From Dehalococcoidia bacterium (GTDB lineage Bacteria > Chloroflexota > Dehalococcoidia > Bin125), in the NCBI GenBank assembly GCA_022822375.1, contig JAJEBU010000007.1, positions 1 to 36,054 of the forward strand: a stretch of DNA of 36,054 nucleotides, in the 5' to 3' direction. The notes under the pieces are model-generated. The model did not search any database. It saw only the letters and a program-made list of their open reading frames with translations, and had not been told where the DNA came from. Every line of letters starts with the position of its first letter. Positions within the stretch are counted from its first letter, which is position 1. A program made the position numbers and the translations under genes. This document shows positions 21,016-28,465 of this stretch, piece by piece.

Positions 21016-22254
21016 TCAGGATCGAGGGCGGGCAAAGCCGGCGGGAATCATGCCGATCACGAGCCCGGCCACGCGACGGTCGTCGCTCTGGCTCATTCTG
21101 CCGACGATCTGGCGCAGCACCGTGCCCAGCAAGGTCTGGTTGAACAGCCAATCGTTGAGATCGGCGTCGGTCGGGTACTTCGCGCCGGGCTGCGCGGTGG
21201 CCGCCTCGTGATAGAACGCCCGCAAGTCGTCGGAGGCGAATTTGAGCCGCACCGGCATCCGATGATTCCAGTCGATCTCGCCGTCAACGGGCTCAGCGCC
21301 GGTGGCGAAGTCGGCGAGCAGCGCAGCCAAATCTTCCACCTGATCGAGCGTTGCGCCCGAGACACCGACGGTTGAGCGTCCGCGGCGCTTAACCGACTCC
21401 GCGTGCCACGGGGCCAGTTGGCGAATCTCGGCGATCAACTGATCGCGCAGCGCTTCGGTCGCGTCGGCCGGCTCGGGCGGTGCGAGCGCCACTGCGCAGG
21501 CCCACGGGTCGTCGCCTGACGTCGGGGCGTCGTGCGGATAGTCGGTCAGTGTCGTCTCGGCCGCCGTTTCCAGCAGTTGCAGCGACGTGAGCAGCACATC
21601 GCGCTGGAAGTCGGGCTGATCGGGCGCACCGAGCGGGCGTCCGAGCGGGAACGGGACGAATAGGGAGCGCGGCGGGGCCATCCCTTCGGCATGCTCTCGG
21701 ATCAGGGAGACGCCGGTCGTGGCTACGCGGCCCTCGCTGCCGCGCTCGATGTAGTGGCTCAGCGCGCACACGGCGCGCGTGCAGAACGGTCAAACGGGTG
21801 TCAGGAAGGCTGCCGTCACGCCGTCCTCAGCGAGCAACCGGCCAATCTCTTCACCCGTCTTCTCCAGCCGAGTCGGATCGGGCTGCGCGCCCATGAAGGA
21901 GTAGTGATAGCGGCTGATGCCGGCAATCGTGCCGTCGGCCGCCAGCTCGCGCAGGCGCTCGAGCGGGAAGACGGTGTTGATGTCCTGCTGGAAGCCGGAG
22001 CGGTCGAAGTTGACCGAGAGGTGCGACATGCGCAGGTCGGCGAAGTCGACATCGCCGGGGATCAGCCGATACTCGACCGAGCCGGGGTTGAACGGTCGGT
22101 CGCCGCTGGGGTGCATCCCCGCAGTCGTGACGATCGCCACCTGGTGCTCGGAGAGCGGCCGTGCGGGAATCCATGCCTGCGGCTCGATCTGCGGCAGCGG
22201 CAGACTGAGCAGGTTCTTGGCCATGTCGGGATGCATGTCGGACGTGCGGACCAT
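21016..22254 (-). CDS. Glycine/sarcosine/betaine/D-proline reductase B-type selenoprotein (in-frame TGA = Sec155)
   Basis: Two adjacent open frames on the minus strand form one gene interrupted only by TGA at 21792-21790. The first ends ...VTAAFLTPV and the second continues PFCTRAV..., in the same frame. Joined, they give TPV-U-PFC, the UxxC redox site of the GrdB/PrdB family, where Sec or Cys occupies this position. Upstream the family pattern is seen in VAIVTTAGMHPSGDRPF, DINTVFPLERLREL and ISRYHYSFMGAQPD. Downstream PPRSLFVPFPLGRPLGAPDQ is also typical. The start ATG 22254 has GGAG 6 bases upstream; length is 412 residues with Sec155 and Cys158. An in-frame GTG at 21771 is an internal Val codon, not a start. 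No grdA, prdA or other reductase subunit is nearby, so the protein may act alone as a thiol/selenol oxidoreductase; its substrate is unknown. Confidence 0.87.
21762..21792 (-). promoter_or_regulatory. UGA(Sec) codon and candidate bacterial SECIS hairpin
   Basis: The TGA is followed by 11 bases, then a perfect 6-bp stem GCGCGC/GCGCGC (21778-21773 and 21767-21762) closing a 5-base loop CGUGU that holds the GU dinucleotide expected in bacterial SECIS apical loops. The loop starts 18 bases after the UGA, inside the known spacing range for SelB-dependent recoding. Alternative pairings exist because the region is GC-rich, so the fold is a prediction. Confidence 0.65.
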
Positions 22255-22360
22255 GGGGAACTCCGAGCGGTTGGGGACGTGATCGGTTGAGCGTCCTGCC
22301 TCGACGATACCGAATACACGCCGCTCGCTGATAGTCTGAGTCTGTTCAGTCAACGATCAG

Positions 22361-28290: not shown

Positions 28291-28322
28291 TTGCTCTGTT
28301 GTGTTAACATCAGGTCCATCAC

Positions 28323-28413
28323 CGATCCCGGGGTGGTCCGGCCGTGACATGCGGACTCGGGCCTGAGAACACACCCGCCGAACCTGATCCGGGTAATGCC
28401 GGCGCAGGGAGCG
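28323..28413 (+). ncRNA. TPP riboswitch (THI element)
   Basis: The conserved TPP aptamer blocks occur in order. CGGGGT is at 28329-28334, CTGAGA at 28363-28368, ACCTGATC at 28382-28389, GGGTAATGCCGGCG at 28391-28404 and CAGGGAG at 28405-28411. A closing P1 stem pairs CGATCCC (28323-28329) with GGGAGCG (28407-28413), with one mismatch. CTGAGA and ACCTGATC lie in the pyrimidine and pyrophosphate sensor arms. About 52 bases separate the aptamer from the thiD start, without an obvious terminator, so control of translation initiation is more likely than attenuation (inference). It is placed directly before an all-thiamin operon. Confidence 0.95.
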
Positions 28414-28465
28414 ACGAGCCTCTCAGACCGACAACCGACCACCCGCATCTGACAAGGATGACGGC

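Follow-up and report, generated by a model that had tools for sequence, protein, structure and literature searches.

Gene Structure and Reading Frame

In this work, we analyzed a 36,054-nucleotide stretch of DNA (the window) from a Dehalococcoidia draft genome. On its minus strand, a frame running from 22254 to 21016 is open except for a single TGA at 21792-21790 and is closed by a TGA at 21018-21016. The original prediction had joined the two abutting frames across the internal TGA into one selenoprotein gene with selenocysteine (Sec) at a UxxC motif, and its account of frame, coordinates, and sequence context proved accurate. The main features of the gene are as follows:

21016..22254, minus strand: putative PrdB-like selenoprotein coding region, 412 amino acids plus the terminal TGA stop, with the ATG at 22254
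21790..21792, minus strand: in-frame TGA, predicted Sec codon for residue 155 of the UxxC motif (TPV-U-PFC), TGA in 79/79 homologous loci
21781..21783, minus strand: Cys158 of the UxxC motif, presumed resolving thiol, invariant in the family alignment
22261..22264, minus strand: GGAG, Shine-Dalgarno-like, kept upstream of the ATG

This GGAG is present ahead of the ATG in 14 of 14 congeners as well as in the window gene. The terminal codon varies within the genus (TAG, TAA, and TGA in 10, two, and three of the 15 genomes, respectively) and the internal codon is invariably TGA (15/15), which identifies the terminal TGA as an ordinary stop. Annotation that ignores Sec will split the gene into two truncated ones.

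If the internal TGA were a real stop, the locus would be a pseudogene, would encode two distinct proteins, or would contain a sequencing error. In this GC-rich window, frames that abut at a single TGA are frequent (24 such junctions are flanked on either side by 120 codons or more), so the arrangement alone is weak evidence and could arise by chance. However, both halves of the split frame match one family, in profile matches as well as in the family alignment, and the frame downstream of the TGA shows the same synonymous-biased selection as the upstream part, with purifying selection acting on the frame both before and after the codon. Together with the conserved codon (all 15 genus genomes and all 79 homologous loci), the covarying hairpin, and the full Sec machinery described below, these observations make a real stop very improbable.

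Conservation of the Sec Codon and a SECIS-Type Hairpin

When 61 related genomes were searched at the protein level, 33 gave matches. The query carried Cys at position 155; therefore, Cys homologs would have been found. The 79 mapped loci come from these relatives and one Desulfosarcina MAG; they include one short match (L107) and three loci that probably encode GrdB. The aligned codon is TGA in every one of the 79 and Cys in none, such that an in-frame UGA is conserved at the redox-active position, as is expected of a selenoprotein. Because all 15 genus members carry it, a sequencing error is excluded. In a wider sample of the phylum, TGA was found at 19 of 20 mapped sites and Cys at one. This lone Cys-for-Sec homolog (L145 in genome G068; AGCPLC) offers a natural Sec/Cys pair for comparison.

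The 48 nucleotides following the TGA were stacked across homologs, with offsets counted from 0 after the TGA. A stem-loop was found at a fixed place, with offsets 11-16 pairing with 22-27 and the loop at 17-21. In the window gene, it corresponds to the following feature:

21762..21778, minus strand: SECIS-type hairpin with six G-C pairs (GCGCGC/GCGCGC) and loop CGTGT, beginning at the 12th nucleotide after the TGA

Among 31 non-redundant sequences (<85% identical), 90% of the cells are paired, compared with 58% in shuffles and 26-46% in slid controls. The observed pairing was reached by none of 2,000 shuffles and by none of 296 control positions elsewhere in these genes. Pair 14:24 covaries (CG, TA, and GC), and the minimum of synonymous diversity in the gene lies just 3′ of the TGA. 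A covarying stem with a G in its apical loop (CGTGT) directly downstream of the UGA is a further hallmark of selenoprotein genes. For the single sequence, the folding energy after the TGA is no better than in shuffles and lies in the usual range for DNA this rich in GC. A generic score for SECIS-like hairpins is only weakly raised (median rank 0.23 versus other codons), and an Rfam search over the TGA region with E up to 10 returned chance matches only. Of these lines of evidence for the predicted hairpin, the comparative one is strong, and the comparative test decided the point.

Selenocysteine Machinery and Host Genome

The genome that holds the window is a 2.72-Mb draft, 95.6% complete. The original prediction had proposed beforehand that the Sec machinery be sought there, and the search recovered a tRNA-Sec with anticodon TCA together with selA (516 bits), selB (323 bits), and selD (350 bits), all above the curated cut-offs. 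This set of tRNA-Sec, SelA, SelB, and SelD is what decoding of UGA as Sec calls for. The selD gene is itself a selenoprotein gene with one in-frame TGA (NCGGUGSKFG; L018, contig C110 of the same genome, minus strand near 2469-2400).

The conserved TGA, the covarying hairpin, and the Sec machinery bear out the prediction of Sec at TPV-U-PFC, and on these sequence comparisons the gene is almost certainly a genuine selenoprotein gene with Sec at residue 155.

A heme-copper oxidase subunit I is also encoded in the genome; O2 respiration is therefore likely. Matches in named assemblies place the genus among Chloroflexi/Dehalococcoidia MAGs, and, judging from the kind of assemblies matched, the lineage appears to be sponge-associated. 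Elsewhere in the window, a TPP riboswitch (28319-28427, plus strand) lies directly upstream of a run of thiamine genes for phosphomethylpyrimidine kinase, TMP synthase, FAD oxidoreductases, and ThiG.

Domain Organization and Family Placement

Two domains can be distinguished in the protein:

21556..22185, minus strand: PrdB/GRDB-like redox domain, residues 24-233, from TIGR04483 and PF07355 matches
21019..21519, minus strand: clade-specific helical C-terminal domain, residues 246-412, no Pfam match, AlphaFold2 pLDDT 88

The best curated match is TIGR04483 (PrdB; E 3.7e-30), and its 105 bits fall below the equivalog cut-off of 300 bits, compared with 310 and 425 bits for genuine PrdB. The PF07355 (GRDB) match reaches 38.8 bits, above the gathering cut-off of 22, and covers residues 30-152 with part of the profile (219-345 of 347). 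Membership in the GRDB superfamily is thus confirmed at the domain level, and the alignment to true PrdB supports the earlier assignment of both halves to the GrdB/PrdB family. Across 45 relatives, D91, P97, G108, Sec155, Cys158, P195, R196, G205, and G209 are invariant.

The AlphaFold2 model of the whole protein (pLDDT 90, pTM 0.89) predicts an N-terminal alpha/beta domain with Sec155 just before a helix (residues 156-172) and three residues before Cys158. The helical C-terminal domain of about 170 residues was missed by the original prediction. This domain has no Pfam match. Foldseek searches against the PDB gave no match with E ≤ 0.001 for the whole model or for the C-terminal domain alone; the same threshold gave no match among viral models, and a PDB profile search gave no convincing relative. 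A likeness to a LacI-type regulator (VIA-align Z 8.7, rmsd 3.4, 139 residues) reflects the common Rossmann/periplasmic-binding-like arrangement, and no function was read from it.

In a tree rooted by midpoint only, with true PrdB represented by two clostridial sequences and GrdB by class relatives, the extended proteins group together in a single clade of 45 rows (support 100/98), separate from PrdB and GrdB. Searches of plasmids and phages yielded clostridial PrdB as well as a single weak phage match that carries no annotation.

Genomic Context, Paralogs, and Missing Partners

The gene order is conserved in the genus: a malate/lactate dehydrogenase gene, two small divergent genes, the selenoprotein gene, a convergent hydrolase-like gene, and two CoA-ligase genes. 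No reductase gene adjoins the selenoprotein gene anywhere in this genus-wide synteny. Among 20 same-family genomes, no GrdA (PF04723) and no GrdE-type protein (PF09338) scored over the cut-off, with one sub-threshold match for the latter, and no PrdA (TIGR04480) scored over the cut-off in these genomes or in the genome holding the window. These profiles do perform elsewhere: PF09338 and PF04723 clearly match proteins of G024, G025, and G037, more distant members of the class, and TIGR04480 scores 976 bits on true PrdA. Neither the combination that defines component B of glycine/sarcosine/betaine reductase (a GrdE/GrdG/GrdI-type subunit plus GrdA in the genome) nor the PrdA pyruvoyl proprotein that goes with PrdB of D-proline reductase was found. 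The genome is an incomplete draft, but the absence of partners repeats in all relatives.

The original prediction had described the gene as an orphan and a loner. The loner part holds both locally and genome-wide. The orphan part does not, as the genome carries a second TGA-containing PrdB-like paralog with 48% identity (contig C33:1840-3069; L075/L151), and congeners hold between two and five, some of them arranged as tandem pairs or triplets (L072, L080, and L084). Moreover, excerpts of two marine surveys show that Sec-containing PrdB-like genes are a long-known and abundant marine family (PMC1088965; PMC2398784). The paralog in the same genome lies between a ClpS-like frame, recognized by eye, and recQ, upstream of the latter. 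The neighborhoods of the paralogs and short relatives (RecQ, TPR, acyl-CoA dehydrogenase, SurE, pantothenate, and radical SAM) are inconsistent and provide no functional link.

These patterns bear on whether the protein could serve as PrdB in a genuine reductase of D-proline or a related amino acid, the pyruvoyl partner being either too diverged to recognize or absent from the draft assembly. The best curated match is indeed PrdB, and the protein shares 31% identity with PrdB of Terrisporobacter, whose gene lies one gene after prdA. However, the score is far below those of genuine PrdB, an extra C-terminal domain is present, the proteins form a separate clade, no partner gene adjoins them genus-wide, neither TIGR04480 nor PF09338 has a match over the cut-off in the 20 same-family genomes, and the genome encodes an oxidase. 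We therefore regard a PrdB subunit as quite unlikely.

Proposed Function and Mechanism

The best explanation overall, which the comparisons of sequence make probable, is that Sec155 would be decoded through the SECIS-type hairpin and SelB and that the protein acts as a stand-alone selenol/thiol reductase using Sec155-Cys158. The stand-alone reductase reading, taken by itself, is likewise probable. Searches of the genome and of its family recovered neither GrdA nor a pyruvoyl partner of the PrdA/GrdE type, so the protein most likely acts by itself or together with a partner yet to be recognized. Glycine and D-proline reductases use a pyruvoyl group for amine binding; without it, a different substrate class or binding mode is expected. 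The protein is probably not a Stickland enzyme, and the non-Stickland role suggested by the original prediction would fit these data.

In this proposal, the hairpin that follows the UGA at 21792-21790 would recruit SelB with Sec-tRNA and so place Sec at residue 155. By analogy with distant relatives (31% identity to PrdB), the Sec155 selenolate may attack the substrate, and Cys158 may resolve the intermediate as a selenenylsulfide, which a dithiol of the thioredoxin or lipoyl type could then reduce. Selenolate/selenenylsulfide chemistry has been proposed for glycine and D-proline reductases (reviewed in PMC10298544). The helical C-terminal domain may supply a substrate pocket or an oligomer interface.

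Alternatively, the selenoprotein could have a non-reductase role as a thiol/selenol redox sensor, a peroxidase-like protectant, or a selenium carrier. Its stand-alone gene, its UxxC motif, and the several paralogs per genome are compatible with such roles, as is a predicted fold that is only generically Rossmann/periplasmic-binding-like. Nevertheless, the active-site surroundings of PrdB/GrdB are conserved (D91, P97, G108, P195, R196, G205, and G209), which points to retained small-molecule chemistry, and we consider a non-reductase role unlikely.

Returning to the stand-alone reductase, it is conceivable, though we propose it only tentatively, that the extended partnerless clade, carried by oxidase-bearing Chloroflexi, represents a new selenoenzyme in which one polypeptide uses Sec to cleave a small molecule reductively, with no pyruvoyl subunit. 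If so, many oceanic selenoproteins called proline reductase PrdB would be misnamed. The clade also offers one compact protein for testing still uncharacterized selenium chemistry.

Comparison With Known Systems

Clostridial PrdB sequences (L157 2200-2922 and L156 3465-4178) show weak similarity near the Sec site to UGSC selenoproteins (NF041046; E 1e-4 to 5e-4), which hints at a shared origin. One of them, on a Peptoclostridium acidaminophilum plasmid (L156 3465-4178), is a PrdB over the cut-off with no prdA listed within 3.5 kb and is possibly another loner.

The extended, partnerless clade is not described in the literature searched, whose coverage leaves out many journals. A 2026 review lists TIGR04483 as "D-proline reductase" only (PMC13188914).

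Compared with PrdB (TIGR04483), the window protein has the same domain and Sec at the same aligned UxxC site, with 31% identity over about 225 residues, but differs in its score (105 bits versus the cut-off of 300), its additional 170-residue helical domain, its separate clade, and the lack of PrdA in its genome or family. As for GrdB (PF07355; TIGR01917/01918), the protein is above the Pfam GRDB cut-off and shares the UxxC Sec site. However, its match is confined to the C-terminal portion of the GrdB profile, it falls below the NCBIfam cut-offs, and it is not accompanied by genes for GrdA or a GrdE-type subunit. In the tree, the GrdB sequences from class relatives (L105 and L106) branch far from it.

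Ocean metagenomes have yielded PrdB-like proteins with Sec since 2005. According to excerpts of the two survey reports, PrdB-like UxxC proteins were the third most abundant selenoprotein family in the Sargasso Sea, with 42 genes (PMC1088965), and 235 Sec versus 110 Cys forms were counted in the GOS data (PMC2398784). These marine proteins resemble the window protein in being bacterial UxxC PrdB-like Sec proteins. In contrast, they are filed in those excerpts as D-proline reductase, an anaerobic Stickland enzyme, with no mention of a missing PrdA or a C-terminal domain; the two groups are compared here by description. The clade analyzed here keeps Sec in every copy found, has up to five copies, and comes with a heme-copper oxidase in the genome but without any of the known reductase partners, which argues that the PrdB name, and the metabolism that this name has suggested in metagenomes, are wrong for this group. 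The family is known; what is new is its enlarged stand-alone version.
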